Assembly: GCA_039704465.1 (NCBI GenBank)
Contig: JASFAU010000008.1
Coordinates: 62,001 to 126,000, forward strand
Direction: 5' to 3'
From: Plasmodiophora brassicae
Lineage: Eukaryota; Endomyxa; Phytomyxea; Plasmodiophorida; Plasmodiophoridae
DNA: 64,000 nucleotides
In this document: positions 4,204 to 64,000 of the stretch, piece after piece
Layout of the letters: each line of letters starts with the position of its first letter
How positions within the stretch are numbered: position 1 is the stretch's first letter
Notes under the pieces: generated by a model
Told to the model about the DNA's origin: nothing
The model's database searches: none
What the model saw: the letters and a program-made list of their open reading frames with translations, nothing else
Program-made: the position numbers and the translations under genes

Positions 4204-7200
4204 TCATGTGGACGTTGCGAAGCTTGCCCACCCGTCCATGTCGATGTGATCAAACTCGGCAGTAGATTCGACCGTTGGTGATGACTCAGCCGTTTGCGAC
4301 GACTCAGCAGTTGCAAAGGAGACGGTCGACAGCTGGATAGGGGCAGAACCTGTACCCAGCAGTCAGATTCGGACAGGCGCGAAGTACAGCATGGGACTGA
4401 AACCCTTCAGGAACCCTCGGACGATTTCATTGTCAATCGAGGAGAGCGCTTTTGTCAGCGTCTCACTGGACCGCACATGCAGAACTGAAAAACGACGATG
4501 TTATGGGCAGAACCCACACGAAGACACGAGAGCGTACGAAAGGTATCGGCAATCGGAGGGTGCTCGAGAGCGGTTCCAATGGCATCGACGATAGCAGGAA
4601 GATCACTAGCCGAGGACGTCGCCATTGCAGTTAACGAGGCCAAGCAGGCTGCGACCAGCGATATCAGACGACTCTGACTTGATTGGCAACGAACAATGGG
4701 GACCTTCTCGATGAGAATGAAACCAGGAGAGCAGAACTCTGCGTTTCAAGCTGGCAGTGCTGTCGGGTAGTCGAGCGATGACCGAAATAGTGGGTAGGGA
4801 CGGTGCAACGCCTCGCAGCAGGGATGCCAGTGCTTGCTGATGAGATGGCCCGCAATCGGACCGGGTGGCGACGCGCTCGACAAGCAGGACAATATCGTCA
4901 TCGGGCCAATGGTGAATTTGGGCGCTGAGTAGCATCCACGACAGAAGCTGCTCCGTCGACGTGAACGACGACGACATTGCCATATCGACCGCACGAGAAA
5001 CCTGTCAACAAGTCAGGCGCAAGCGATTACGAAACGACGCGAAAAGGACCTTTTCGCCATCGTTCTTCACGAGAAGAACCGCACCTTGGCTGACATGATC
5101 TGCCAGTTCGACAATGTCGTGCGGAGGCGTCGATCGAACAAGAAGGCTGAACAGCGCAGGATTCGACACGGCCAGAGACGGGAACAGCTCATAGCTTCGA
5201 CGTACAAGGATGCTGCATGCAGAGTTAAGAAATCATTCGCGATCTCACCGCCACCAAACGCACAACCTGGTATGGACTGGGCATGTGGCCCGGCACACGG
5301 CAATGTCGGCATCAATCGTTTGCTGGGCATTAGCCAATGCAGCACTGTACAGATCCGCCTGTTCGGGATGCCTCTCGACCCAGTCCAGCAGGTGAAATCC
5401 AAGCTGTGGCTCTGCGGTACGCATAAGAGCCAGCAGAGCCGGGCTGCCTCTGAGAGACAATGTCGGCCACAGGGTGGGGATCCTGGCGATACGATACAGA
5501 TCACCTTGTAGCGTCAAAGACCGCGGCCAACAAAATCGACGCATGGAACTCGCCTTTACAGAACTCAGTCGATAACAGTTCCATGAAGGACGCGCAGATC
5601 TAGACGGGCAAACGCCATCTCTCTCAGCACGGGTGAAGCGCCGCACAGCTCTGCAGGGTACCTGTTTCAGCGCGTCGCTATTTGATTCGGCCGTGGAACT
5701 GAACAGCAGAATGGCGTTGGCTGCATTGGTCGCCAACGGCACGGCGGACAGCTTCGATTGGCCAGCTCCATCGCCGTGAAGGCTGACAAAGAGAGTGGAA
5801 AACGGCTCCTTCAGCGAGACAGGGAGCCGTCGTAGCACACGAGCAAGCAGAGACTGCGTCGGTTCTGTCGACGGCACGCGAGCCAACTTGGTCTGCACCC
5901 CATGCTTTCAGCCTACCGTGCTCCGTCTCGACAGCACGACACGACATACGGGCGGTGATCCAGATAATGGCGGCGAGCTTGCTGCCCTTTTGAGATTGGG
6001 CGGTGTACCGCTTGTCGCTCCAAACGCTTGCGGAAACATCGAGGGCAGTGAAGCGCGCAGCTGAGGTGTCAGCTGTGACGCAGGTTATCGATCAATGGTA
6101 TAGGTACTCGTAACGGAAACGAACCATCAGGGAAGACAGTGATGCGATCCCGGCGTTTGCGCTTCCTTGAACAAACGCAGCATCAATGGACGACCGTATC
6201 TGAGAGCGCATAGCTATCGTTGAACGATTAAAATGGTATCATAGCGCGAGCGACACATGGGGCTTACACGAAGGGCTCCACTTCTGGGCGCAGTCCAGCA
6301 GTGTATCCAGCAGCACTTGTGCAATCTCCTGTGCATAGGCAACTGTCAGGGCAAAACCGATTCAGAATAGCGACCGCGTACAGTATATCGGGTGGTGGAA
6401 TTCATCATGAGCAGAAGGGCACACTCAATCCGCTGAACGCTGGTCTCGTTGTTGAAGAATAGCCAGTCGTAAAGGGCGGCCCGGCACAACTGGGGCGCAA
6501 TCGGAGAGTGCATATGAGTCTGTTGCTAGGCAGTCAGAACGTTTGAAACTGCAAAGCAACAGGACGCGGGAAGACCTTTATGCACCATCCGAGTAGGACC
6601 CACGGGGGCACCGCCTTGCTGGCCGGACTCGACGCGGGTGGTCGCTGGACCGCACAGCAAAGGTACCGAATGAGGTCGAGGAGGAGGGTCTCGGATCCTT
6701 TAACGAACTTCATCGCAAACCAGGACACGTATCGCTGTTGCACGCCAAGAGGAACCTAACCGGACTTGAATCAGCCGAGTGGAACGACATTCTTCGAACG
6801 GGACACGTGTAAACCTGGTTCAGAATGAAGGAGATTTTCACCTCCATATCCGGTGTCAAACGCGACTGTAGCATGTCACTGGTCGTTTGTCGCTGATACA
6901 CGGACACAGGCAGGGACTCGAATATCGCTTTCAGCGACGCATGCTGTGCAATAGATGGCTGCAGGACGCGAGCAACGTCGCGTCCGATAGCATGAAGCTC
7001 GCCAGGCGTCGCAGCAACCAATCCGGAAAGGAACGGGACACATTCGGCCTGAAGCTTGGCATCAAGATCAGGAAGGACCCTGATGAACGTATACAGGAAG
7101 CGCTGTAAGACGGCCGTCCGCTGCTGCACGTAGCTGGGCGCCAGCGTCTCAGATCGCGACAACGTGTTGGACGAATGGCATGCTCACCTTTGATTAGATT

Positions 7201-7774
7201 TGACGACAGCGAGAACGCTGGCGGCAACCGACACGTTCCTTGCCGATGAGCTCCCGCTGGCGATTTGCCCCAGCAGGGCAGTCAGGATGGGTTCGCATGC
7301 GTCAACATCCATCTTGAGCATGTCATCTACCAACCTGAACAGCTACGAAGCCGCTGTTAGCGGCACGCAGGCATACAACAGGTGTGCATGCGCAGGAAGT
7401 TACCCGTTTGGAGCAGTGCGGAACGAGGACCGGGAACTTCCTATGGCACAGTTCCTGAAGGACGCCGCTGAATGCAGCATACCCATCGAGCGTGCAATTG
7501 ACAAGGTGGCGGAAGACCTAGCCGACCGGCAGTTTGTCAACCACGCAGGCGTACACCCTGGGGGGTCGATACGGGCTACCTTATCGGAGTTGTCCTTGTC
7601 GACAAGGACGCCGTACAGGAATCCGGGTGCGGCATCGGCGGCGGCCACGCCCTGCAGGGCCGCCTGCACCTCCAGGTCGTTCCTCTTCGCGAACGTCGCC
7701 GCCAGGCGCTCGTAGCTGTGCCGGGCCGCCTCCTCGAACGCGTCCGGCGCGTCGAGCTCCCGCCGGCGGAACAT
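4204..7774 (-). CDS. INTS3: Integrator complex subunit 3 homolog
   Basis: Helical-repeat subunit of Integrator, the nuclear complex that cleaves snRNA and attenuated nascent transcripts. The gene has many exons. In order they show LYGVLVDKDNSDK (near 7590), a segment DMLKMDVDACEPILTALLGQ (near 7300), LQSRLTPDMEVKISFILNQ (near 6850, matching the SRLTPDMETKLLFM block of human INTS3), LLLDLIRYLCCAVQ (6680-6640), VPPWVLLGWCIK, ALYDWLFFNNE, and EPQLGFHLLDWVERHPEQAD near 5370. The C-terminus reads EFDHIDMDGWASFATST and stops at 4204-4206 after a 57-bp intron that starts GTTTCAG near 4410. I start at the Met at 7774, but an in-frame Met at 7858 is also possible. Order and spacing match the family over its whole length. 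Some exon borders between 5.9 and 6.3 kb remain unresolved. A partial copy lies at 12043-12408. Confidence 0.82.
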
Positions 7775-7924
7775 GGGCTTGTTCAGCGGCGCGCGCCGGA
7801 TCCCATTTGTGCCGGCGGCGCCGCCCCACTGTCCAAACCCGCAACTGCACGCGGACACCGCCTTTTGCGACCGGTGCCACTGTCGTCGGGGAAGAAGCGC
7901 TGAGCACGATATTTACTATTCTGA

Positions 7925-7948
7925 ACACACACACGCACACACACACAA
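7925..7948. repeat. (AC)n microsatellite
   Basis: A short run of AC dinucleotides with one G interruption, upstream of INTS3 and beyond the 3' end of the GNAT gene. A second short run, (GA)n near 8158-8174, lies in the last intron of the GNAT gene. Confidence 0.8.
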
Positions 7949-8027
7949 TATACAAACAGCGCCACTAAGCAGCAGACCCTGCACGATCCGGTTGGTCGGA
8001 TAAATATTTAACAGGAACCAGGTTCGA

Positions 8028-8982
8028 TCAGCTGGTGGCCGCGTCCGCCTGGTTGTTCGAGCAGCGATCGCGCAACGAGTCGAGCAGGCGGGCCTTGTGG
8101 GCGCCCCAGTCCTCGGACGACAGCATGAAGTTGTACATGTTTGGGAACCCTGCCAGACGAGAGAGAGAGAGAGAGCGTCAGCAGACATGTCGCACGTGTG
8201 CCCGAATGCCACGAGGCGCACCGGCACGGCCGACGCTGACCAGTTGCCAGTCGAACCGCTCGAAGAAGGCCCTGGGCGGTCGATGTTGCCGGTCAACGCC
8301 ACACAATACGCGTTGGAGACGGAGCTGCTCGAAGCCGTACTCAAGCACGGCCAGGAACATGTCCTCGACGCCGCCGTCGTCCCACCAGTCACTCAGTGCG
8401 GTCACGTCCATCTCGCCTGAGCACGTCACCGCGTCCAGTCGGACGAACCCTGCATGCATTCGGTCGGCATGGAACGGGCGGGGGCTGGATCGCCGACGTA
8501 CCAATGGTGCCAACGAGCTCGTTGCCGCGCACGACAAAGAACATCAGACATTTGCATTCGGACTGCTGTGTGGACATGGTCCTCGTCCGGATGTGGATCT
8601 CGCGGGGCGTCAGCAGAGGCAGGCTGCGCAGGTGGACCAGCGACGATTTCGGCCGGTGCAGCAATTCGTGCAGCTGCTGCAAATGGGCGGACGTGACCTC
8701 GGCCGTCGATACCATCGTGCATCCCAACGACGTCGTTAGCAGCAGACGCCGGGGGATGTCGAAATCGGCCGACGTGGCCGACTGGGCCTTGGGCGGCGAC
8801 GACGCCTTCTGCGTCGGCGTGCCGCCCGCCGACGACAGGTACCGACGGAACAGGAACGCCAGCAGCCACCGTCGCAGACGCCACAGGCAGGACGCGCCGA
8901 CGCCGACGGCCACTAGCGACGTCAGCAGGCGGTGCCTGCGGATGCACGACACGATGCGAGGCATGACGACGTCGTCACGCAT
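8028..8982 (-). CDS. GNAT-family N-acetyltransferase with N-terminal membrane anchor
   Basis: Probable acetyl-CoA-dependent N-acetyltransferase. Three exons (8982-8502, 8449-8222, 8149-8028) splice to a 276-residue protein whose reading frame closes exactly, with introns beginning GTACGT and GTGCGC. The N-terminus carries a hydrophobic stretch (LLTSLVAVGVGASCLW) flanked by arginines, suggesting a signal anchor. The GNAT core is seen as CLMFFVVRGNELVGTIG (beta strands), then WWDDGGVEDMFLAVLEYGF, LQRVLCGVDRQHRP and FFERFDWQLVSVG, which follow the usual motif A/B order of an acetyl-CoA fold. The substrate is unknown. The C-terminal tail (FPNMYNFMLSSEDW) is also seen in acyltransferase relatives. 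Confidence 0.72.
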
Positions 8983-9215
8983 TTCACGGGCGCCGCGTCA
9001 CAAAACCCATCTGGACCCGGGGACGGGCCCGTCCATCCGCGCCCGAAGGAAGGTGAATCGCCAGGCGCAGGTGGCCGATCGTGTAACCCGCCTGATGTCC
9101 CATACGGGGATGTCGACGTGCTACGTGACCGAGTCGCTGCACTTGTTTGTATTATATAGGCCCGGCGGAGGCGGCGGCGGCCAGGACCCCTGCGTGGTAC
9201 AGACAGGGAACGCAT

Positions 9216-9567
9216 TCAGTGATCCCATGGATGGCGCAGGCCCTGACAGCGTCGCGTCAGTGGAGAGAATGCGCAGCGTTTCGACAGCAATACGCCCTAA
9301 CCAGAACAACAGGCCCGTCATGCTTGGCGCGGTCTACACGCGAAAGTCAGATCGGGCGTTGACCGCTCAGGACGGCGCCCACGGACAGAGGATCCAGAAG
9401 ACGGCCGTGCCGCCCATCATTCTCGCCAGGTAGACCTTCCAGGGATCCGGCGGCGGAATGTGGATCCCGTACTCGGCGATCTCCTTCTGCCGCTGGCTCT
9501 CCGACACGTGCGACCCGAATCGACGTCCGGTGCGGAGCAGGCGGCGCGCGCGACAGCCCAACATCAC
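9216..9567 (-). CDS. NDUFB2: NADH dehydrogenase 1 beta subcomplex subunit 2 (complex I AGGG subunit)
   Basis: Small accessory subunit of the membrane arm of respiratory complex I. Three exons (9567-9387, 9333-9302, 9242-9216) join in frame to give 79 residues. Two introns of 53 and 59 bp (9334-9386, 9243-9301) separate very small exons of 32 and 27 bases. The single membrane segment and tail read GGTAVFWILYRAKHDGPVVL followed by GLRHPWDH. This closely resembles the plant-type NDUFB2 signature of FWILYRAKQDGPVV followed by a GWRHPW ending. The Arg-rich N-terminus fits mitochondrial import. Without splicing, the frame ends in an unrelated tail, so the gene is easily missed. Confidence 0.85.
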
Positions 9568-20142: not shown

Positions 20143-20376
20143 ATGACGTCGTTCGCTCTTGTCCTGCCAGTCCTTGTCATGGCGGCAACCATCACCGCGA
20201 TGCCCGTCCATCGCCGCGCGCCCCGCCACTCCAGAACATCCAACGTCACTTGCAACCAATCCGTTGTGGCACCGCATGGAACTGACGTAGATTGCACAGG
20301 TGGTGAACCCGACTCCGCTACATGTTCTAGACGGCAGTCTTCGGGACGGGTGGCGTCCGAGTCCAAGCGACGTTGA
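20143..20376 (+). other. Secretion-signal-like ORF overlapping the repeat gene
   Basis: ATG at 20143 opens MTSFALVLPVLVMAATITAM, a good signal-peptide shape, followed by basic and Cys-containing residues. The frame runs into the next gene in another register and ends at 20376. It may be the first exon of a secreted protein or a relic. No homology is known to me. Confidence 0.3.
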
Positions 20377-22669
20377 CCGTGCGAGAAGCTATCTGATTCA
20401 GGACCGCCTTCATGACCAGGATTTTAATGTACTGCCGCACCTGGCGAATAAGCTTGCGAAGTACAATGCACATGATGGTTGGTCGCTCCCATTCGCGTTG
20501 CTCCTGATAGCCGTGGCTGAGGAAGAATTTAATGGGCATACAGGGGTGCTCAGCGCCATTGCTGATGCTCTGCAACGTCATCAAGAACGCGTTAACCGCT
20601 ACAATTCCAGAGAAATGACAATGCTGTTGCATTCGCTTGCCAAGCGTCGCATCAAGAAGCGCGTCCTGTTCAATGCCCTCGGCAATCGTGCTCTGGAGAT
20701 GATGCCCGGATTCTACCCACAGTGTGTCGCCAATACGGCATGGGCGTTCGCGAAATTGTCGATCCAGAACCGCGCCCTGTTCAATGCCCTCGGCAGACGT
20801 GCTCTGGAGATCATATCAGGATTCAACCCACAGGGTGTCGCCAATACGGCATGGGCATTCGCGGCATTGTCAATCAAGGACCGCGCCCTGTTCAAAGCCC
20901 TCGGCAATCGCGCTCTGGCGATTATCGCCGATTTCAACCCACAGGAGGTCGCCAATACGGCATGGGCATTCGCGACATTGTCGATCCAGAACCGCCCCCT
21001 GTTCAATGCCCTCGGCAGACGTGCTCTGGAGATCATATCAGGATTCAAGCCGCAGGAGGTCGCCAATACGGCATGGGCATTCGCGACATTGTCGATCCAG
21101 AACCGCGCCCTGTTCAATGCCCTCAGCAGTCGTGCTCTGGAGATCATATCAGGATCCAACCCACAGAATGTCGCCAATACGGCATGGGCATTCGCGGCAT
21201 TGTCAATCAAGGACCGCGCCCTGTTCAAAGCCCTCGGCAATCGCGCTCTGGCGATTATCGCCGATTTCAACCCACAGGAGGTCGCCAATACGGCATGGGC
21301 ATTCGCGACATTGTCGATCCAGAACCGCCCCCTGTTCAATGCCCTCGGCAGTCGTGCTCTGGAGATCATATCAGGATTCAAGCCGCAGGAGGTCGCCAAT
21401 ACGGCATGGGCATTCGCGACATTGTCGATCCAGAACCGCGCCCTGTTCAATGCCCTCAGCAGTCGTGCTCTGGAGATCATATCAGGATCCAACCCATCAG
21501 GATCCAACCCACAGAATGTCGCCAATACGGCATGGGCATTCGCGGCATTGTCAATCAAGGACCGCGCCCTGTTCAAAGCCCTCGGCAATCGCGCTCTGGC
21601 GATTATCGCCGATTTCAACGCACAGAATGTCGCCAATACGGCATGGGCATTCGCGACATTGTCGATCGAGAACCGCCCCCTGTTCAATGCCCTCGGCAAT
21701 CGAGTTTTGGCGATGATGGCCGAATTCAACCCACAGCAGGTCGCCAATACGGCATGGGCATTCGCGACATCGTCGATCCAGAACCGCGCCCTGTTCAATG
21801 CCCTCGGCAATCGTGCTCTGGAGATCATGGCCGATTTCAACCCACAGGGTATCGCCAATACGGCATGGGCATTCGCGACATTGTCGATCCAGAACCGCGC
21901 CCTGTTCAATGCCCTCGGCCGTCGTGCTCTGGAGATCATATCAGGATTCAAGCCGCAGGGTGTCGCCAGTACGGCATGGGCATTCGCGACAGTGTCGGTC
22001 GAGAACCTCGCCCTATTCAATGCCCTCGCCAACCGTGGTGTGGAAACCATATCTAAGTTCCACCCGCAGGACGTCGCCAATACGATGTGGGCATTCTCTG
22101 CTGTTCGGTACTACCCCGATGACAGGATCGTTGAAGCCATGGTCGGCCGCACGTGCTTCTTCTATTCAGATGGTTCCTTTTCCGATCAGCACCTTGTTCA
22201 GCTGCATTTATGGCGACTCTTCGTTGGGGAGAGCCGTTTTGAATCTATTGTCGATCGCGTATGCCACGTGAAGACGGACGTGATGGTGAGCAGTTTCAGG
22301 GATGCGATGTCCCGCACTATGCAACATGCATCGCGGATGGAGCATGAAGTCGTCGATGCTCTTTCGCGAATGTACCAACCAGGATATGTTGTTTCCGGAG
22401 ACATTTGCCCTGGTACTGGTTACTCTATTGACGCAGCGTTGCCTCAGGAGCGCATTGCTGTCGAAGTGAATGGCCCAACGCACTTCCTCCGAGATTACCT
22501 CTCCAATCGTGTCAGGTCGATGAATGGGGCTTCCCGGTTGAAGCGCTACTTACTTGAACGATACGGCTGGAGAATTGTCGACGTGAATTTCGAAGATTGG
22601 GACAAGACGCGCGGGGACCGTGAACAGCAACAGGAATTACTGCAGCAGCTACTCGCTCCATTTTCATAA
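20300..22669 (+). CDS. RAP-domain protein with thirteen 37-residue helical repeats
   Basis: Likely organellar RNA-binding protein. Thirteen tandem units of about 37 residues follow the pattern NPQ-VANTAWAFATL-SIQNRALFNAL (20640-22110), the alpha-helical repeat type (OPR/heptatricopeptide-like) found with RAP domains in algae, apicomplexans and other protists. The C-terminus is a RAP domain: SIDAALPQERIAVEVNGPTH, then SRLKRYLLERYGWRIVDVNF (residues 700-780), a restriction-endonuclease-like fold thought to act on RNA. The N-terminal part (LPHLANKLAKYNAHDG) matches the paralog at 38 kb. The frame begins with GTG right after a CACAG acceptor-like site, so the ATG is almost certainly in an unresolved upstream exon. 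Units are almost identical in DNA, pointing to recent expansion or gene conversion. By family, it would act on mitochondrial rRNA or mRNA. Confidence 0.88.
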   Translation: MVNPTPLHVLDGSLRDGWRPSPSDVDRARSYLIQDRLHDQDFNVLPHLANKLAKYNAHDGWSLPFALLLIAVAEEEFNGHTGVLSAIADALQRHQERVNRYNSREMTMLLHSLAKRRIKKRVLFNALGNRALEMMPGFYPQCVANTAWAFAKLSIQNRALFNALGRRALEIISGFNPQGVANTAWAFAALSIKDRALFKALGNRALAIIADFNPQEVANTAWAFATLSIQNRPLFNALGRRALEIISGFKPQEVANTAWAFATLSIQNRALFNALSSRALEIISGSNPQNVANTAWAFAALSIKDRALFKALGNRALAIIADFNPQEVANTAWAFATLSIQNRPLFNALGSRALEIISGFKPQEVANTAWAFATLSIQNRALFNALSSRALEIISGSNPSGSNPQNVANTAWAFAALSIKDRALFKALGNRALAIIADFNAQNVANTAWAFATLSIENRPLFNALGNRVLAMMAEFNPQQVANTAWAFATSSIQNRALFNALGNRALEIMADFNPQGIANTAWAFATLSIQNRALFNALGRRALEIISGFKPQGVASTAWAFATVSVENLALFNALANRGVETISKFHPQDVANTMWAFSAVRYYPDDRIVEAMVGRTCFFYSDGSFSDQHLVQLHLWRLFVGESRFESIVDRVCHVKTDVMVSSFRDAMSRTMQHASRMEHEVVDALSRMYQPGYVVSGDICPGTGYSIDAALPQERIAVEVNGPTHFLRDYLSNRVRSMNGASRLKRYLLERYGWRIVDVNFEDWDKTRGDREQQQELLQQLLAPFS
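20870..21550 (+). repeat. Higher-order 333-bp repeat within the RAP gene
   Basis: Three consecutive 111-bp units starting at 20870 are duplicated almost exactly at 21203. The second copy carries an extra 15 bases (a tandem duplication coding five residues) near 21490, so the next unit starts at 21551. This is a two-copy higher-order array inside a coding sequence. Confidence 0.9.
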
Positions 22670-37999: not shown

Positions 38000-39805
38000 A
38001 TGCTGGTACGCCAGGGCGTCGACGCTCTTGGACGGCGCTGGGCGATATGCGGTCACGTCTGTGCTGGGTGGCAATGCCGGTCTGTGTCGGGGAGGCCCCA
38101 GGTGACGCTTCGTGACTGCGACCGCGTCCTGGCGCAGGTCCTGGCCCGCCCGGGTCCCATCGACTACCGGCTGCGGGTCGACCTGGACGAGGTCGACCGG
38201 AACCTGTCGCTGTTGCTGCTGTACCCGGACCATGGCTCCAACTTCCGGTTCCTGCCCCACATCGCATCGAAACTGGCTCGCGTGCCACGCGACCTGCTCC
38301 GTACTGAGGGCCACAGCGTCGCCTCCGCCCTGGCCGCCGACTGAATTCTCGCGTCAGGGGCCGATCGCGTCCAGGAATTGCAACGCGTGATCGGGCGCGT
38401 GTTCGGCACCATGCTGGACAGCTACCGGGGGCGCGACACCATCACGCTGGCGCACGCGTTCGCCAAGGCGGGAACGCGCGACGCCGACCTGTTCGACGCG
38501 ATCGCCGCGCGCCTCCTGTCGGGCCAGGACCGATCCGATGGCCTGATGCCGCTCTCGGTCAAGGGCGACGCGATCGACCTGCGCCCCAGCATGGGCCTGC
38601 TCGACGCGCGCCTGCTCGCCAACTGCGCCTGGGCCTTCGCCAAGGTCAACGTCGGCCACGTCGCCCTGTTCACCGAGATCGCCCGGCGCGCCGCCGTCCT
38701 CATGCCCACGTTTGCCGCGCAACACGTCGCCAACACGGTCTGGGCGTTCGCCCGCGTCCACGTCGACAGCGCGGACCTGTTCGAGGCGGCCGCCCTGCAC
38801 GCCGTCACCACGATCGACGCGTTCCAGGCGCAGGAGGTCGCCAACTCGGCCTGGGCGTTCGCCGTCCTGTCCCACGCGCACCCTTACCTGTTCAGCGCCA
38901 TCGCCGGCCGCGCTCAGGTCGTCATGCCCACGCTCCTGCCGAAGCACGTCGCGATCCTGGCTTGGGCGTTCGCCACGGTCCGACTGTCGGACGACGCCCT
39001 GTTCCAGGCGCTGGCCGACCGCGCTGCGTCCCTGATCGACGCGTTCGTCGCCGTCGACCTGTCGATGATGGCCTGGGCGTTCGCACGCGCCGCCATCAAC
39101 GACCAGGACCTGTTCGCGGGGATCGGGCGCGCCACCATCGCCCAGATCGAGTCGTTCGGCGAACAGGAACTGTCGAACCTGGCCTGGGCGTTCGCCACGC
39201 TGGCGAACGTCGACGACGACCTGTTCCGGGCGATCGCGCAGGCGTCGCTCGACAAGATGGACGCGTTCCGGGCGCAGGGCCTGGCCAACCTGGCCTGGTC
39301 GTACGCCACGCTGGCGATCCCGAACGACGCCCTGCTGCGGGCGATCGCCCGGCGCGCCATGGCCGTCATCGACACGTTCAACCCGCAGAACGTCGCCAAC
39401 CTGGCCTGGGCGTTCGCCAGGCTGAACGTGCACGTCGACGGCCTGTTCGACGCGATCGCGCGGCGCTCGCTGGCGGTGGTGGGCGCGTTCTCGGCGACGG
39501 AACTGACGATGCTGGCGAGCGCGTTCTCGGCCATGTCGCCCGGGATGCACGACGACCTGTACATGGCGATCAAGCACCGGGCGGTGGCCGTCCTCGAGAC
39601 GTTCGACGACCACCAGCGCACGTTGCTGAGCAACGCCCTCATGCGCCTGACCGTTCGCCACGATTCGCCGTTCCAGCGCATGCCCGTCCTCGGGTCCCGG
39701 CAGGAACTCGCCGACCAGCAACGGGCGAACGCCCGACGCGACCTACGAATACGCCAGGCCGTCGCCGCACGATACCAGGCGCACCGGGCGACGCACGACG
39801 CCTAG
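38000..39805 (+). CDS. 37-residue-repeat protein without RAP domain (paralog of 20.3 kb gene)
   Basis: Helical-repeat protein, probably binding organellar RNA. Proposed exons: 38000-38005 (ATGCTG), 38102-38300 and 38358-39805, totalling 550 codons in frame. The intron 38301-38357 (GTACTG...GTCAG, 57 bp) removes an in-frame TGA at 38342. Conserved N-terminus: FRFLPHIASKLA, like LPHLANKLA in the paralog. About ten divergent repeats follow with the same core (VANTVWAFARV, VANSAWAFAVL, LSNLAWAFATL, VANLAWAFARL). The C-terminus lacks RAP and ends in a basic Arg/Gln-rich tail. The first exon is the least certain part. Confidence 0.78.
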
Positions 39806-44969: not shown

Positions 44970-46396
44970 ATGTCCGATGGAGACCTGTTCGCCGAACTGT
45001 ACGGCCATCAGGACAAGGAGCGAGATACGGCCGCGCGCCCCGAGCAGCCTCCTGCACAACCGCCACCAGGTCGCGCCGTGGGAGCCCAGTCTTCCTTCTG
45101 ACCCGCTAAACGATAATTGTATGCAGGCGAGCTCGAGACGGCGCCGGCTTCCGCAGAGGAATTGAGCAACGTGGGGGCGGAATCGCAACCTGAACCAGAA
45201 GGGAACGGCAGCGACGACGATGAGACCGAAGGCAGTACGGACGACAGCGACGACGACAGCGAACAGGACGTGAAAATCGTCCTGATCGGCAACAACGACC
45301 TGTCGCGAGCGCCCACGCAAACGGTTCGCGTGGCACCCAACAAGTACGTTCGTGCCGTGTCTGAACAGGCGGACGCTGCTGCTGCTGCTGCCGTTGCCGC
45401 ACCTGCGCCCGCCGCACCGACCGATACGCTGACGAACGAACTGGAAGTCGAGGCACCCGTCGTGGCGAAACGTAAGCGGCTGCCGCTGTTGCACCTGAAC
45501 GATTTGTCTGACATTGTCGCGTCGGCGTGTCAGCCGAGAAGCCGGACATCGCGACGTTGATCCCGCCGGAACCGGCCCCGATTGACCGTCTGACTGGACG
45601 GCCGATCACGTTCCCGTCCGTCTACGACGTTGACATTGACGCGCTGCCCGAGAAGCCATGGAAGCACCACCTGGCCGACCTGTCCGACTGGTATACGGGT
45701 CGACGATGCGCGCGCGCCGGGTGCTCCGTTCTGACGCCGCTGTACAGGTTCAACTACGGGTTCGACGAGAACTCGTGGCGCACGTACTGCCAGCGCCAGG
45801 TCCAGATGCGCTTGACCGTATCGAAGCAGGTGAAGCCGAGGTCGTCGCAAGGAGGCCATGCGGGGCGCCACGCGGGGCATCGTGGCGGGCCGCCCTCGTA
45901 CCCGCCCATGGCGCAACGACCAGAGGAGCACAACGTCGCGCCGGGCATGCGGGAACCCGCCCCCGAGCATCGCGTCCTGACGCGACGTGGCTCCCCGCCC
46001 AGGCCTCGCGACGAGCAGCAGCACCCGCCAAGGCAGCATGACCGTGAGCGTGACCATCGGGAATCGCGGCCGTCTCGGGAGCCGTCCAGGTCTCGGGAGC
46101 CGTCCCGTCGTCGCGAATCACCGCGCCCGCGAGGCGCGTCCCGCCCGAGAGACGCCGGCCATGACAGGTCGGCACGCGACAGGGACCGCGACATGTCGAG
46201 GGACCGGGACCGGGACAAGCGCCTCGGCAGGTCGTCGTCGCGCGACCGCGACCGGGATCGCGACCCGTCCCGCCACTCGCGTCACGACCCGCCCCGCCCC
46301 GACCACCATCGCGGCCGGGACGACCCGTCCCGTTCGAAACGCGGCCGGTCGCCTCCTCGTTCGCCACGCGACCACGACGCGAAACGCCGCCGCTGA
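44970..46396 (+). CDS. FIP1: Pre-mRNA 3'-end-processing factor FIP1
   Basis: CPSF/CPF subunit that recruits poly(A) polymerase. Three exons (44970-45069, 45127-45471, 45534-46396) join in frame to 435 residues. An acidic N-terminus (DDDETEGSTDDSDDDSEQDV followed by KIVLIG) precedes the diagnostic Fip1 motif: LPEKPWKHHLADLSDWYTG, then YRFNYGFDENSWRTYC. The C-terminal half is an Arg/Asp/Ser-rich array (SRDRDRDRD-like) as in vertebrate FIP1L1, probably for RNA binding. The Fip1 motif has an insertion between the LADLSDWY part and FNYGF compared with the usual DYFNYGF. Additional upstream coding exons are possible. Confidence 0.88.
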
Positions 46397-48160: not shown

Positions 48161-49077
48161 ATGCGGCCATCTTCCGGCGCCGTGCTCATCGCCCTTCTCG
48201 GTACGCAGGCAGCGACTGCTCTCGGTTGTCCCCGTCCCTGCTGACCACCGACCGCGTCTCAGTAATTGCTGTATCCGTGTACACCGCCTCGTCCACAGCC
48301 ACGACGCTCAGGCCAACGACTCGTAAGCCGACGACGCGCAAGCCGACGACGCGCACGCCGACCACTCGTAAGCCGACCACTCGTAAGCCGACCACTCGTA
48401 AGCCGACGACGCGCAAGCCGACGACTCGCAAGCCGACGACGCGCAAGCCGACCACTCGTAAGCCGACCACTCGTAAGCCGACGACGCGCAAGCCAACTAC
48501 TCGCAAGCCAACTACTCGGAAGCCGACAACACGCAAGCCGACGACTCGGAAGCCGACGACGCGCAAGCCGACGACGCGGAAGCCAACGACGCGGAAGCCG
48601 ACGACACGAAAGCCAACAACTCGGAAGCCGACGACGCGCAGGCCAACGACGCGGAAGCCGACGACACGCAAGCCGACGACGCGCAAGCCAACGACGCGCA
48701 AGCCAACAACTCGGAGGCCAACGACGCGCAAGCCAACAACCCGGAAGCCGACGACGCGCAAGCCGACGACGCGCAAGCCGACGACGCGCAAGCCCACAAC
48801 TCGGAAGCCAACGACGCGGAAGCCCACAACTCGCAAGCCCACAACCCGGAAGGTGCTGACTACGCGGAGGCCCACGAACAAGCCGACGACGATGAGACGT
48901 CTGACGACGCATAAGGCGACAACGCAGGTGGCGCGGAAGCAGGTCACGACCGGGCAGAACCGCCTCTGGATGCACCTGCACGAGGCCAAGAACGAGGCCG
49001 ATTCGGTCGACACCGTCTACGAAAGCGTCGGCACGGTGGTCGTCCCCGACCACGACCTACCGACCCTGGAACCCTGA
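48161..49077 (+). CDS. Secreted KPTTR-repeat protein 1
   Basis: Two exons (48161-48200, 48263-49077) joined by a 62-bp GTACGC...TCTCAG intron give 284 residues. Splicing creates a signal peptide (MRPSSGAVLIALL, then VIAVSVYTASSTA) absent from the unspliced frame. The mature protein is about 36 tandem pentapeptides of Lys-Pro-Thr-Thr-Arg (48314-48855), an extreme low-complexity, basic, potentially heavily O-glycosylated stalk. The C-terminal domain of about 45 residues reads NRLWMHLHEAKNEADSVDTV, then YESVGT...PTLEP, and is shared with the next two genes. AATAAA at 49148. Role unknown: wall, adhesion or host-facing protein are possibilities. Confidence 0.8.
48314..48855 (+). repeat. 15-bp tandem repeat coding Lys-Pro-Thr-Thr-Arg
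   Basis: About 36 copies of a 15-bp unit, ACGACGCGCAAGCCG and variants, differing mostly at third positions. This pattern indicates amino-acid-level selection. Confidence 0.95.
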
Positions 49078-49147
49078 TCCCGCCGTGCCTCGCCAGTGCA
49101 CAACAAACGTTCGGAGCCGCTGCTCGTCTACCTACTGACTGTGTATC

Positions 49148-49153
49148 AATAAA
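49148..49153 (+). terminator. AATAAA polyadenylation signal
   Basis: Canonical hexamer 71 bases after the stop of KPTTR protein 1. Confidence 0.5.
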
Positions 49154-49352
49154 CGCCTGTACACGTTCCAGTGAAGGCATGGCGCCCCCTGCCACATATA
49201 GGACCCGCGTCGATCGAGGTGCGACGTCTTCGACGCGCGTGTTGCAACGTGCCTGCCCCCAAGTCCCGTTGGTACCGTGGAGCGATCCACGGGCGGCAGC
49301 ATGGCGTACCTCGAGTCGAACCTCCTATCATTCGCAACGCCACAATATCCGC

Positions 49353-49787
49353 ATGTCGCCCACGACGATGCGTTCGCTGCTCATCGCCGCCCTACTTGTG
49401 GCCATGATGTCGATGGCGATCGTCGACGCGACAGCAACGACACATAAGAAGACGACGCGAAAGCCGACGACGCGGAAGCCCACGACGCGAAAGCCGACGA
49501 CGCGGATGCTGACGACGCGGAAGCTGACAACGCGGAAGCCGACGACGCGGAAGGTGGTGACGACACGAAGACCGACGACCCGAAAGCCGAAGACGACGAG
49601 CCGGAAGGCGACGCATCGGAAGACGACGACGGCGACGGGGGCGGCGAAGGTGCCGACGGCGCTGCCGAACCACTTCTGGTCGCACCTGACGGAGTCGGTG
49701 ACCAAGGACGAAACCCTGGACACGACGTACGAAAGCTATTCCAGCAACATGATCAGCCCGCCGCCGTTGCCGCTCCTGCAGCCCTGA
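49353..49787 (+). CDS. Secreted KPTTR-repeat protein 2
   Basis: Single exon, 144 residues from ATG 49353 (a second Met at 49368 is also usable). Signal peptide RSLLIAALLVAMMSMAIVDA, then about eight imperfect KPTTR units and a Lys/Arg/Thr-rich stretch, then the shared C-terminal domain: NHFWSHLTESVTKDETLDTT, YESYSSN and a Pro-rich end PPPLPLLQP. It lacks the signal-peptide intron seen in genes 1 and 3. AATAAA at 49824. Confidence 0.82.
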   Translation: MSPTTMRSLLIAALLVAMMSMAIVDATATTHKKTTRKPTTRKPTTRKPTTRMLTTRKLTTRKPTTRKVVTTRRPTTRKPKTTSRKATHRKTTTATGAAKVPTALPNHFWSHLTESVTKDETLDTTYESYSSNMISPPPLPLLQP

Positions 49788-49823
49788 TCGGGGGGTATCA
49801 ACCGCTGTCTTGTTGCACCATTC

Positions 49824-49829
49824 AATAAA
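49824..49829 (+). terminator. AATAAA polyadenylation signal
   Basis: Canonical hexamer 37 bases after the stop of KPTTR protein 2. Confidence 0.5.
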
Positions 49830-49973
49830 CCGTGTCTGATGTCGTGCCCTCACATGCTGTAGGCGGATCGGGGAGCGCTGTTGCAGGCAGGCGCGTGTAA
49901 GCGACGCGGGTGGCGGGGGGCGATAGTACGCTGGGGATCACACGTGGTACCTTCGCCTATCGATCTAGTTGCC

Positions 49974-50422
49974 ATGTCGGCCGCACGGCCAGGTGTTGCC
50001 CTTCGCGTCCTGGTGGCCGCCGTCATCAGTAACGCGCTCCGCTTGCACGGCACGTCCAGGAATCGCTTGTCTGACACCTGGACCGCACAGTCGCCGTCAT
50101 CATCAACGTGGTCGCTGCCAGCGCTGCCGCATCGACACGAAAGCCGACGACACGGAAGCCGACGACACGAAAGCGGACGACCAACAAACTATCCTCAAGG
50201 AGGCTTGTACTGACGACCAGGCGCCCGTCGACGCGTAAAATGACGACGCATCGCCCGACGACGCGCCGACCGACGAGCCATAAACCGTCGACGGCGCACC
50301 CGTTCCAGTACTGGTTCCGCCTGACGGAATCCAAGACGCTGTCGGAGACGATCCAGTCGACGTACGAGAGCGATGGCAACGTGAACTGGGCGCCGCCGCA
50401 GCTCCCGCAGATCAACCCCTGA
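49974..50422 (+). CDS. Secreted KPTTR-repeat protein 3
   Basis: Two exons (49974-50028, 50091-50422) around a 62-bp intron give 128 residues in frame. Splicing builds the signal peptide LRVLVAAVIIAVIINVVAAS. The repeat stalk is short and degenerate (STRKPTTRKPTTRKRTTNK). The C-terminal domain FQYWFRLTESKTLSETIQST, YESDGN and PPQLPQINP aligns with the other two. The intron sits in the same part of the protein as in gene 1, and its length is identical. Confidence 0.8.
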
Positions 50423-51398: not shown

Positions 51399-52864
51399 TC
51401 AACGTGGATGTTCGCCGGAGCAGCGCTCCTCGTCTAAGAGTTTCAAATTAGAACGCGCACTGTTACGCCTCAGGCCGGGCGCACTGACGGAAACGTCGTT
51501 CAGAAACGGGTGCCCCAGCGCTTCACAGGCCGTAATGCGTTCATGGGGAGTAACCTTCAGCATGGCGCCTGCATGGAGTAGACCTGCAGGTGAGTACCCA
51601 TGTGCTGAACCAACGGCGACCGGCAAGCAAACGTACGTAGGAGGTCAAGGCCCTGCTCGTTGCGAAGTACGGCGGAGAACGTGGCGAGACGTGAGCGGCA
51701 GGGTGCCACGTTTCCGATATTCTCGAGTGAACCCAGGAAGCTCTTGGTCGCCGGGTCAGCATTATACGCGGTCATCAGCTTGCGGATGTCAGGCCAGCCG
51801 AATTCCTGCGACTCATCGTCAGGGTCGTGCTTTCCTCCCAGGAAACGATACCGCTTTCATCGTCACCTTACGGATCCGTTCCAGCACCATAGCCTCGTTG
51901 TTGCAGTCGAACAGCGGCTCGCGAACCACCATCTCGTAGAATATGCAGCCGACAGACCACCTGTGCACCGGCAGGGCCGTTTAGCACAGCACGAAACCCA
52001 CCGGATGATCGTGGGGGGACGCTCGTTACATGTCAACGGGGTACCCGTACGGCAGGCGGCAGAGAACCTCAGGAGCCCGGTACCAGCGCGTCACCACGTA
52101 CGCGGTCATCACGTCGGGCTCGTCGGCGTCGGCGTTGACAGCGCGTGCCAGGCCCAGATCGGCAACCTTGACGCGGTTGTCACGGTCCAGCAGCACGTTC
52201 GACGGTTTCTGCAGCCGCCATACCCCCCATATGGTGAGACCGCCGCAAAGGGTACGAGACCCGTCAAACGCGACGCACCAGATCGCGATGGATGATCCGC
52301 GCGTTATGCAAATGCTGAACGCCGTTGAGGATCTGGACGAGGATCGATTTGATCCGGTGGATGGCGTCCTGGGATACAGGGGCCGCACATCGGTGGCGGT
52401 GCGCTCGTGACGCCTCCGGGTAAATCACGTGGTACAGATCCTTGTCCATGCACTCAAAGACCAGGTTCAGCGACGTGAAGCTGGCGTAGTTCTGCGGATC
52501 CTCGATGTCCAGCAGGCGGATGATGTTTTCGTGGCGCAGGTGGCGCAGGATCTTGATCTCTCGAAGAACGCGCAACCCCGTCTCCTGTTCGCATACGGGC
52601 TCTCAGCGAAGCGATACCAAGGCGGACGGTCGCTCGGTTACGGACGTGCTGAAACAGGTCCGTGATGAACTTGACGGCGACCCGGTCACCAGTGCACTTG
52701 TCGAACGCGGAGAAGACGATCCCGTAGGAGCCGTATCCCAGGATCTCGATGGGCGGCCTGTACCAGGTGCGCACAATGATGTCCCGCTTCGTCGTCACCT
52801 GCCTGCTGGCGTCTCTCTCCCACTTCTCGAGTACCACCTGGTCAGGCGGCGACCGGAGCGACAT
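51399..52864 (-). CDS. MAPK-type protein kinase with a TAY activation motif
   Basis: CMGC serine/threonine kinase. Several exons. Glycine loop [14 protein letters not shown], lysine VAVKF, then spliced to [20 protein letters not shown] (alpha-C Glu), hinge [15 protein letters not shown], catalytic [14 protein letters not shown] (across an intron), metal loop VKVADLGLA (DLG), activation lip [17 protein letters not shown] with the T-x-Y dual-phosphorylation pattern of MAP kinases, then [11 protein letters not shown]. The last exons carry [19 protein letters not shown], the end of the kinase fold. The x residue in TxY is Ala instead of the usual Glu, Gly, Pro or Asp. The tail is short, with no extended C-terminal domain. 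Confidence 0.85.
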
Positions 52865-53694: not shown

Positions 53695-54894
53695 TCAGTT
53701 CGTGAGTTCGGCAGCGCGTTTCGCCATCTCGAGGGCTCCTTCGCGTGTCTTGTTGCCGCCAATGAAACCGGACATGTGCACGAACACACCGCCGGGTACG
53801 CCGGTCGCCTTGGACAGGTCGTCGTCACGTAGGCCACGCCAGGCGGCCGGCAGTGGGCACCTGGACTCGAACGAACCCGACTCAACGGGAACCGCCTGAA
53901 CACGCCAGGAGGCGCCCGTCGAGTCCTCGTACACGATGTAGAGGACCGGAGACGAAACGCCCATCGTCTCCTCCAATGCGTGCAGATGATCTTTCCAGGG
54001 GCAGAACTGGTTCAGGACCACGACCCGGCCGGACGGATCGTGCTTGAGCCGGTCCGAGAGCGCATCGGCAACAATCTGCCGCCCGGGAAGCCAGATGGTC
54101 GCCATCTCGCGGACGCGATCGGCGAGTTCGGCGCCCACCATCTGCATGGCGGCGTGGAATCGTTTCAGTTGACCTTCGTCAGTAAACGTTTCGTTCCAGG
54201 GCGTGTTCAGGCGGCCGACACGCGACGACAGGTCCGTGTTGATGGAATACAGGCGCGTCAGGCCGCCCGTGTACGACGGGTCGCTCGCACGGTACTGCTC
54301 CACGCCATTATCAATACCGTCGAGTCCTTCGATGAACCCTGGCCGCACTTTAACGTTAGAAATGTGGCACAATAACATGCACGACGATACGCTGCCAGCT
54401 CACCTGTGTAGATCTTCTGGTACAGGGTCTCCAGGTCGTCATCAGACAGCGCCACCGGCTTGGACAGCGAGCGAATGACATCCTTGCCGAAGTGCTTGTA
54501 GATAAGGCCAGCACTCGACAGTTTCGTCGTGTGCTTCGCGGAGAACGTCTCGAAGAAGCCTTTCTGGTGATGATCAAACCGCAGTCGATCCGGATCGTAG
54601 ACCTGTGGTACGGGAGGAGACGTTCAACACACCCCGATACGTCGAAATCTATTCCAACCATGCGTACGTCGCCGACGTCGACAATAATGGTCAGACGATC
54701 CAGAACGTCGCGATCACGGGTGCGCGTGATCTCCGCGTCTTTGAACTGATCCAGCGTCTTCAGCATGAAACACGCCAGAGCCTGTGCGGATCCCACGACT
54801 CACGAAACGGAGACGCGCAGCCAAGCCCGCCGCCGCCCCATACCTCATCGCAGTGGAACGCGCCATTGTGCGTACCGATCGTGGCGGCCGACAT
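53695..54894 (-). CDS. MYG1: MYG1 exonuclease (UPF0160 family)
   Basis: DHH-like 3'-5' exonuclease with nuclear and mitochondrial RNA roles. Exons splice to IGTHNGAFHCDEALACFMLK (N-terminal metal motif, near 54870-54770), RTRDRDVLDRLTIIVDVGD, YDPDRLRFDHHQKGFFETF (DHH), TKLSSAGLIYKHFG, FIEGLDGIDNGVEQY, and the C-terminal block ESGSFESRCPLPAAWRGLRD, FVHMSGFIGGNKTREGALEM. Introns occur after CDE, after VDVGD and after QKIYT. The start is Met 54894. All metal-binding and catalytic blocks are present. Confidence 0.93.
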
Positions 54895-61312: not shown

Positions 61313-61502
61313 GACGAGCAATTTGCGGAAATCCTTATGATCTTCTTCGTTCCCGACGGCGTGCGCCGATACTTCGACCAGAAGCAGAGTGTGATGACTG
61401 AATAAATCCCGAACCCCGCGACGGACTTCGCCAGTCCGTCAAAGCGTTCGTTGCATCAGCTTGCCTGATCGTGACATTTTGACGGACTAACCAACGGTCA
61501 CC

Positions 61503-61600
61503 GCCGTCCCGCCCGCCCCGTTCCGCCCGCTCCGTTCCGCCCGCTCCGTTCCGCCCGCTCCGTTCCGCCCGCTCCGTTCCGCCCGCTCCGTTCCTGCCGT
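61503..61600. repeat. 15-bp minisatellite
   Basis: About five to six copies of ccgctccgttccgcc lie between the kinase and the retroelement. Confidence 0.85.
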
Positions 61601-61624
61601 CCCGTTTCCTGTCCGTCTACCGGT

Positions 61625-62548
61625 GTGTTCGCACCTCTGGCGGCCAACGTTCCCACCCATCTAGTCGACGCCGAACCGTTCCTGGACGCACTCATGGACG
61701 ACGCTCAGTGCTACCTCATCCATTATACGTGGACCGAGGACACCGAGTCAGAGCAGACGAAGATACCTGAAAAATACCAGGATTTTGCCGACGTGTTCGA
61801 CGAGGCCACCGCCACATCCTTACCGCCGCACCGCGCCTCTGACTGCTCGATCGACCTGAAACCGGGGACGGAGCCTCCATTCTGTCGCCTCTACGGCTTG
61901 TCTCCCCGCGAACAGGTAGCCCTCAAGAAGTATTTGGAAGATAACCTCCAGTCGAACTTCATACGGCCGTCGCGTTCATCTGCCGGCGCGCCGATCCTTT
62001 TCGCGAAGAAGAAGGATGGTTCGTTACGGCTTTGCGTTGATTACCGAGGCCTGAACTCGGTCACCGTGAAGAACCGTTACCCACTTCCGCTCATCGACCA
62101 GCTGCTTTCGACACTCGGTCAAGCAACGGTCTTCTCCAAGATCGACCTTCGAAGTGCGTACAACCAGATCCGCATTCGCGAAGGTGACGAATGGAAGACA
62201 GCATTCCGGACACCGTACGGATTGTTCGAGTACCTGGTTATGCCCTTCGGGCTTGCCAACGCCCCGGCATCCTTTCAAGCCTTCATGAACGAGACATTCA
62301 GCGACTTCATTGACCGTTTCGTTGTTGTTTACCTTGACGACATCTTGATTTTCTCCAAGAATGCTGAGGAACATGAACAGCACGTGCGTTTGGTGCTCGA
62401 GCGTCTACGCTCCGCGCGCCTGACGGCCAAACTGTCTAAGTGCTTGTTCGACGCACCGGAGGTCGAATTCCTCGGCTACTTAGTGTCCAAGGACGGCCTC
62501 CGGTTGGATCCCAGCCGAGACACAATACTCGCGTGGGCCGCCGCGTGA
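61625..62548 (+). pseudogene. Retrotransposon reverse transcriptase, frameshifted
   Basis: Reverse transcriptase open frame with [53 protein letters not shown] and the catalytic YLDD box near 62330. It ends at a stop near 62548, where the sequence shifts frame. Confidence 0.9.
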
Positions 62549-63071
62549 CCTCCACGGGCTGCAAGTCTTCCTTGGGTTCGCCAACTTCTACCGAAAGTTC
62601 ATCCCGCATTTCGCGGAGATCGCACTTCCCTTGACGAACCTTACTCGCGGGGAAACCGAATTTATCTGGAACGAGACTGCTTCGACCGCCTTCGCAACTC
62701 TGAAGAGCGCGTTCACACGCGCTCCGGTCCTCGCCCACTTCGATCCTAGCGTGCCGTGCGAGATTGAAACGGATGCCTCCGACTTCGCCATTGCCATGGT
62801 CCTCTCACAACGGGGCCGTGACGGGGACTTACACCCTCTGGCGTTCTTTTCGAGGAAACTGGACCCCGCTGAGATCCGATATGCGGTCTACGACAAAGAG
62901 CTCCTGGCCGTTGTTGCGTCCTTCGAGAAATGGCGCCAGTTCCTGGATTCGGATGAACATCAGACACTTGTGCACAGCGACCACCGCAACCTCAAGTACT
63001 TCATGACGACCCACAAGCTTAATCCGCGCCAAATCGATGGTCCCAACTGCTTAGCGGCTTCGACTTCATGA
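62549..63071 (+). pseudogene. Retrotransposon RNase H region, frameshifted
   Basis: RNase H motifs IETDASDFAIAMVLSQ, RYAVYDKELLAVVASFEKW and LVHSDHRNLKYF are present. The frame breaks before the integrase at about 63050. Confidence 0.88.
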
Positions 63072-63870
63072 TTCAGCACCGACCGGGCCGCTTGCACGGT
63101 AAACCTGACGCCTTGACGCGCCGCCCGGAGTACGTCCCGACGGCGTCTGAAGAAGGCATCCTGCAACAATCTCTCCAACTGCTCCCGCTTCATCGCCTAG
63201 TTCCGTCCCCCGTGGTGGACGCGTTCACCGTCCACGCGGAGGCGGCTCCGTCCGAGCCTCTCCTAGACCGTATCCGACGACACCAAGCGAGTGATCCGTT
63301 CGTCGCCAAGATTGCCGGTCTGCTCGACCGACCTCAAGGTAGGAAGTATTGCCTGAGAGACGGCCTCCTGTACAAAGGACGCTCCTTGGTCGTCTCCGGA
63401 GACGAATGCAAGATCGAGATCCTCCGGCAACTCCACGATAATAGGGCCTCTGGTCACTTTGGTATCCGCAAAACGCTTGGGCTTGTCCAGCGTGAATTTT
63501 GGTGGCCTGGCATGAGGGCCTTCGTCAAACTGTACGTCTCATCCTGCGACATTTGTCAGAGAAGCAAGTCTCCGCGCCACAAACCGTCCGGGCTCCTGCT
63601 GCCTCTTCCCTTGCCGAGTTCTCTGTGGTCATCGATCTCAATGGATCTGATTGTCAAGCTTCCAGTTTCCGACGGCTACGATTCGGTCCTCGTCGTCGTC
63701 GACCGGTTTTCGAAAATGGCCCACTTCATTCCGTGCAAGGAGACCCTCACAGCGGTCGAGCTGTCCGACCTGTTTTTGCAGCAGATATTCCGCCTGCATG
63801 GCCTACCGGACGACATCGTCTCCGACCGGGGGCCCCAGTTCGTGTCGGCCTTCTGGAAGCACTTACTCGT
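63068..63870 (+). pseudogene. Retrotransposon integrase, truncated
   Basis: HHCC zinc region (NRASGHFGIRKTLGLVQREF, CDICQRSKSP) and the first two catalytic aspartates (SISMDLIVKLP; VSDRGPQFVS) are visible. Sequence after FWKHLLVL diverges, so the third acidic residue and the C-terminal part are missing. Confidence 0.88.
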
Positions 63871-64000
63871 GCTCTGGCGACACGATCCTCATCGTTGTTA
63901 TCCGGAGCCAGCATGCACGCGTAGTCAGCGAACTGCGGGGAGTACCCCTCAATCACGCCGGCCATAGACAGCTCCAACACCGACGTCAACAGCGGTTTGG
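63871..64000 (-). CDS. Partial open frame beyond the retroelement, possible 5' part of the FunK1-like gene
   Basis: On the minus strand the frame LTSVLELSMAGVIEGYSPQF then ADYACMLAPDNNDED is open and coding-like, runs off the window end, and stops matching where the integrase begins. It lies on the same strand as the kinase at 61.3 kb. I cannot show they belong to the same gene. Confidence 0.4.

Follow-up and report, generated by a model that had tools for sequence, protein, structure and literature searches.

Three neighbouring genes, each with a Lys-Pro-Thr-Thr-Arg (KPTTR) stalk followed by a short C-terminal tail, raise the question of whether the repeat or the tail makes their products a family, and of what such proteins might do. 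The genes lie in a window of 64,000 nucleotides (C8:62001-126000), which has a GC content of about 62% and belongs to a genome of 25,344,181 bases in 21 contigs. A sequence-only reading of the window had placed three adjacent genes of one orientation here, and the coordinates it gave stand (Table 1). The same-strand trio is flanked by ordinary eukaryotic genes.

Table 1. Features of the KPTTR cluster, of the genes around it in the window, and of related genes on other contigs
Feature	Position	Strand	Details and basis
Fip1-motif frame	45512-46393		upstream of cluster
Gene 1	48161..49077	+	284 aa; exon 1 48161-48200, exon 2 48263-49077; GT-AG enumeration and translation
Gene 1 predicted intron	48201-48262	+	62 bp, phase 1, GTACGC..CTCAG
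Gene 1 stalk	48310..48849	+	36 xPTTR units, 15 bp each; TRF: 36.3 copies at 48297-48839
Gene 1 C-terminal module	48955..49074	+	40 residues; alignments
Gene 1 AATAAA, possible poly(A) signal	49148..49153	+	starts 71 bases past stop
Gene 2	49353..49787	+	single exon, 144 aa
Gene 2 signal peptide	~49353-49430	+	cleavage site by eye
Gene 2 stalk and linker, degenerate	49431..49664	+	5 PTTR, 9 TTR; TRF array 49451-49595
Gene 2 C-terminal module	49665..49784	+	40 residues; alignments, genome search
Gene 2 AATAAA, possible poly(A) signal	49824..49829	+	starts 37 bases past stop
Gene 3	49974..50422	+	128 aa; exon 1 49974-50028, exon 2 50091-50422
Gene 3 predicted intron	50029-50090	+	62 bp, phase 1, GTAACG..CACAG
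Gene 3 C-terminal module	50297..50419	+	41 residues; alignments, genome search
Protein kinase exon	52264-52575		downstream of cluster
MYG1 homologue	53695-54399		downstream of cluster
Member 4	C16, L018 1349-1620		71 residues, no stalk; second-contig copy found by tail search
C12 stalk gene	L009 (G000:C12:867001-877000) 7012-9309	-	GPI-like end by eye
C12 stalk gene	L009 3904-5268	-	GPI-like end by eye
C12 stalk gene	L009 1413-2207	+	GPI-like end by eye

Tandem repetition is also seen elsewhere in the window. A RAP-domain protein (20291-22669, with DUF1601 and FAST_1 matches) has a middle part in which a 111-bp unit is repeated in tandem about 13 times with 84% matches, and a more diverged array of the same period (3.6 copies) lies at 39069-39464. 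At the end of the window, frames that carry reverse transcriptase and integrase domains give the stretch 61475-63964 the look of a retroelement.

The tail answers the first part of the question. Over their closing 40-41 residues the three proteins share an invariant W, L-x-E, YES and LP and end in P; the L-x-E, the YES and the Pro/Leu end had been recognized before, and the position described as W or F is in fact always W. When the last 44 residues of all four proteins that we assign to the family are aligned locally in pairs, z-scores range from 11.8 to 21.2, and none of 2000 shuffles reaches the score in any of the six pairs, so the similarity proposed from the letters holds in a proper alignment. 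Whole-genome searches with one tail each retrieved the other members at E-values from 5.5e-7 to 0.025, at these four places only: the tails of gene 2 and member 4 found all four, and those of gene 1 and gene 3 found three places each, each missing the other. These searches score the best candidates only, which gives a family of at least four. The further copy that the sequence-only reading advised looking for is thus a fourth, stalkless member on another contig, C16; with it the invariant set becomes W, L, E, Y, E, L, P, P. By tail score gene 1 is closest to member 4 and gene 2 to gene 3, so that the tandem arrangement alone does not give the course of duplication. The tail, which ends exactly at the stop codon in every case, is the sole part common to all four members. 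The family is defined by the tail and not by the stalk, because member 4 has the tail without a stalk, and the stalk recurs without a detected tail.

Nothing that we searched offers this module a relative. No Pfam family scored above the cut-off with the tail, PDB sequences gave nothing convincing (one match, E 1.6), viral contigs, queried with record P0002 only, gave none, and the gene 2 tail found no relative in the protein database. There the four-member alignment yielded two matches out of 135 candidates, namely gene 1 itself (P0001) and the second exon of member 4 (P0002). The database search requires common words of five residues, so that distant relatives of a 40-residue tail could escape it. 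As a control, the MYG1 homologue has its nearest non-self protein at 56% identity, among 120 listed of 1104 matches; the protein database is therefore without a close relative of this organism, and the negative result for the tail is weak. A literature search found nothing on KPTTR as a repeat, and searches with the strings KPTTR, PTTRKPTTR, TTRKP and RPTTR gave, by title, nothing on such a repeat. The statement that no described family has this build agrees with the Pfam and PDB results, and as a conserved module the tail is undescribed and has been seen to date in one organism only. AlphaFold, given the four sequences, produced a single helix of low confidence, placed where the tail begins (mean pLDDT 61, pTM 0.21); the tail may be flexible, or an alignment of four sequences may be too shallow.

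The stalk is a different matter. In gene 1 it consists of 36 in-register xPTTR units (32 KPTTR, 3 RPTTR and 1 TPTTR), and in the window the pattern for a pair of adjoining KPTTR units is matched 31 times, in any of 100 dinucleotide shuffles not once. The stalks of genes 2 and 3 are more degenerate; gene 3 has three PTTR and four TTR. PTTR units thus number 36, 5, 3 and, in member 4, 0. The earlier count of about 36, eight and few agrees for the outer two genes, the eight of gene 2 being reached only if degenerate units are included; that copy number differs between the genes was seen correctly. Across the 36 units of gene 1, first and second codon positions are invariant save for one site (Lys 32, Arg 3, Thr 1), and third positions vary in four of the five codons (Pro 22:11:3, Thr 22:7:5:2, Thr 17:14:3:2, Arg 18:11:6:1). 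Variation so biased to third positions points to selection acting on the peptide of the KPTTR frame rather than on the DNA itself or the long antisense reading frame. As had been noted, the stalk is very basic and rich in Thr and Pro: mature proteins 1 to 3 have a calculated pI of 11.7 to 12.0, and their last 45 residues are net acidic. Cysteine is absent from all four family proteins.

All four members begin with a hydrophobic segment (best 11-residue Kyte-Doolittle mean 3.0 to 3.9) followed by a plausible cleavage site, and from hydropathy and the cleavage-site pattern, judged by eye, we infer that the proteins are exported. A signal peptide in each gene of the trio, as originally claimed, is likely, although in genes 1 and 3 it is split by a predicted 62-bp intron that had been missed. 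In gene 1 signal peptide and stalk lie in different frames and are joined by removal of the predicted intron; in gene 3 the signal peptide likewise becomes complete only after such removal; the frame of gene 2 is open throughout its signal peptide. Together with a predicted intron in the signal peptide of member 4, this makes three of four members with introns of 62, 62 and 56 bp, all of phase 1, the first exons measuring 40 (gene 1), 55 (gene 3) and 46 bases (member 4). These introns were picked from 13, 17 and 5 frame-keeping GT-AG pairs, respectively, by the quality of donor (GTACG or GTAACG) and acceptor (TCAG or ACAG) and by mutual agreement. In human secreted genes, introns of phase 1 often lie close to the place where the signal peptide is cleaved (PMC7259759), so that on their own such introns are weak evidence.

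Past the stop, gene 3 has no AATAAA, only AATGAA at 88 bases, and member 4 has AGTAAA at 62. The four 150-base upstream stretches share two 7-mers, each in three of the four, and no 8- or 9-mer in three; a common promoter motif was accordingly rejected.

After its putative signal peptide (cleavage by eye) member 4 retains about 43 residues, nearly all tail, with a pI of 8.5 and one N-x-T site. Record P0002 (source lgn) is identical to it from the second exon onward and has a different upstream open frame, which we read as a one-base length difference inside the predicted intron, possibly a sequencing error. About 185 bases upstream of member 4, on the same strand, lies a frame with a tyrosinase domain (L023 896-3013, C16; Pfam E 5e-34), which is open through its own signal peptide, without an intron, and whose product is probably secreted; segments resembling CUB and EGF domains were seen in it by eye, without Pfam match. 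The genome search listed five tyrosinase-like places; this frame is one of them, and none of the five is on C8, the cluster contig. Downstream of member 4 a leucine-rich-repeat-like gene (L023 3711-6266) is apparently split by many short introns; it has a transmembrane-like segment, both features judged by eye, and its last frame is without Pfam match.

As a family mark the KPTTR stalk stands for three genes of the family only, being absent from member 4 and present far beyond the cluster. A genome search with the stalk pattern gave 64 matches, five in the cluster and 59 at ten other sites spread over seven contigs (C1, C2, C8, C12, C16, C17 and C20), and single-tail genome searches matched the family tail at none of these ten. 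The other (K/R)PTTR proteins (at loci L009, L010, L011, L013, L015 and L016) carry a pentad of the same kind as the cluster, but their C-termini are unlike the cluster tail: GPI-like, transmembrane (by eye, in the C1 and C2 proteins), or with a GPS motif in L011. The last of these (L011 1150-6798, G000:C16) is a 1883-residue frame with stalk-type compositional matches, its GPS motif lying near the end (Pfam E 1.8e-06). At L009 two near-identical gene copies differ greatly in stalk length (frames of 765 and 454 residues), and for the globular segment of one L009 gene Pfam gave nothing at E 0.1.

Introns of phase 1 are predicted in the signal peptides of the three C12 genes too (56, 59 and 56 bp, the donor of one being a weak GTCGCC), and the stalk genes of L013 and L015 have N-termini that are equally hydrophobic unspliced. 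In comparisons of N-terminal segments, genes 2 and 3 each score z 5.1 against the plus-strand C12 gene, and the outsider from L013 scores 6.5 against gene 1; member 4 gives a non-significant 0.8 to 2.4 when compared with genes 1 to 3 and with the three from C12, and the N-terminus of the tyrosinase frame, taken as a control, -0.4 to 2.1 against all nine others. The N-terminal segments are moderately alike, but signal peptides by nature resemble one another. A common cassette of split signal peptide and stalk, used by different genes across the genome, is plausible.

What, then, might these proteins do? We consider it an evenly balanced proposition that they are secreted cationic, probably O-glycosylated components of a coat or adhesive, with a tail that assembles or anchors them. 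They would be modular small extracellular proteins made of a signal peptide, 0 to 36 cationic Thr/Pro pentads and the 40-41-residue tail at the stop. The stalk would be disordered, with probable O-glycosylation of its Thr pairs, and would bind anionic surfaces or polysaccharides through Lys and Arg; the tail would associate with partners or hold the protein in the coat or adhesive, an assembly role that is only a guess, because AlphaFold yields one low-confidence helix. Repeat expansion would tune stalk length, and tandem and dispersed duplicates would supply the long, the short and the stalkless parts of a single secretion. Of the functions suggested by the sequence-only reading, surface coat or adhesin is the most likely kind, and interaction with a host found no support, as nothing in the analysis marked the organism as a parasite.

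The main rival, which we regard as unlikely though deserving serious attention, is a secreted signalling peptide precursor, from which the tail or a piece of it would be cut off as a pheromone or hormone, the stalk being a dispensable basic pro-region. A tail that alone unites the four members and always ends at the stop, a member 4 that is almost only tail after its signal peptide, and a cysteine-free, possibly unstructured tail would all suit such a precursor; the strong codon-level constraint on the 36-unit stalk of gene 1 would be needless for a dispensable region, and the same stalk occurs on GPI-like surface proteins. That last kind of observation also counts against cationic antimicrobial or defence proteins, whose polybasic Pro/Thr stalk would bind and damage microbial surfaces: other proteins encoded in the genome commonly carry the stalk, which is polar and lacks a hydrophobic face, and the stalkless member 4 has a pI of 8.5, so that this reading, suggested by the extreme pI of mature proteins 1 to 3, seems improbable to us.

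A further rival is a basic protein of DNA-binding or histone-like kind, for which the gene 1 frame matches the histone H1-like Pfam family HC2 (PF07382) at 70.5 bits against a cut-off of 40. The match sits on the stalk and is compositional, however; genes 2 and 3, at 29.8 and 17.7 bits, do not reach the cut-off, stalk proteins whose ends are unrelated (L009, L011, L013 and L016) exceed it, and all four members have the hydrophobic N-terminus and plausible cleavage site. We rejected the histone-like protein on the placement of the HC2 match and hold it to be very improbable. Scarcely credible is a non-genic origin, by which a drifting microsatellite would have thrown up chance reading frames; the DNA is of low complexity, but chance frames were rejected on the third-position pattern of the gene 1 stalk, and a tail kept across contigs and a common intron phase speak against them too.

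Among known systems, extensins and other hydroxyproline-rich wall proteins are also secreted and basic, with Pro-rich tandem repeats. Extensins are defined by Ser-Pro4 blocks, and the proteins described here have none; against Extensin_1 (PF02095) the gene 1 frame scores 94.8 bits, where the cut-off is 105, and the gene 3 exon-2 frame 17.6, gene 2 being unlisted. With a score below the Pfam cut-off, extensin identity was rejected. Mussel foot proteins are secreted adhesives with cationic repeats rich in Lys, Pro and Thr; the stalk units here, in contrast, are without tyrosine, and Tyr is conserved at a single place, within the tail.

The closest layout is that of the Drosophila salivary glue genes. 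According to three reports (PMC6352337, PMC9409817, PMC10835880), the signal peptides of Sgs1, Sgs3, Sgs7 and Sgs8 are split by a short intron of phase 1, and repeats occur in some paralogues only, Sgs3 having KPTTT repeats and a conserved C-terminal segment of about 50 amino acids, and Sgs7 and Sgs8 being repeat-free proteins of 74 amino acids. Each of these features recurs here: the short phase-1 signal-peptide intron, predicted in all members except gene 2; Thr/Pro/Lys repeats that are long in one paralogue, short in two and missing from the fourth; a conserved C-terminal segment; and genes that are partly clustered. However, the fly C-terminal domain carries a cysteine motif, IRXC[L/V]C, in the cited part of PMC10835880, and this is absent from all four proteins here, which makes the family an analogue of Sgs3/7/8 and not a member. 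The likeness is read from gene layout rather than from aligned fly proteins, and the family belongs to a eukaryote with a 25-Mb genome; convergence is apparently at work, with no homology expected, and we infer that the working principle may be shared with the fly glue genes.

A bolder version of the coat or adhesive reading would have a unicellular eukaryote independently evolve a fly-glue-like adhesive, its long, short and stalkless proteins sharing a split-signal-peptide cassette, a cationic mucin stalk of tunable length and the tail. In it the invariant Tyr of the tail would be the substrate of a secreted tyrosinase, the one encoded directly upstream of member 4, and the resulting quinone would cross-link to stalk lysines. 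Literature on tyrosinase, adhesive protein and protist together gave an animal review only, and we treat this version as a long shot. If the proteins do form a coat or adhesive, a microbial eukaryote and an insect would have reached the same layout, that is, a split signal peptide, a Lys-Pro-Thr repeat, a tail and a repeat-free paralogue, and the family would be a small model in which one could test how repeat stalks arise, disappear and come to be shared by secreted and by membrane-anchored proteins.
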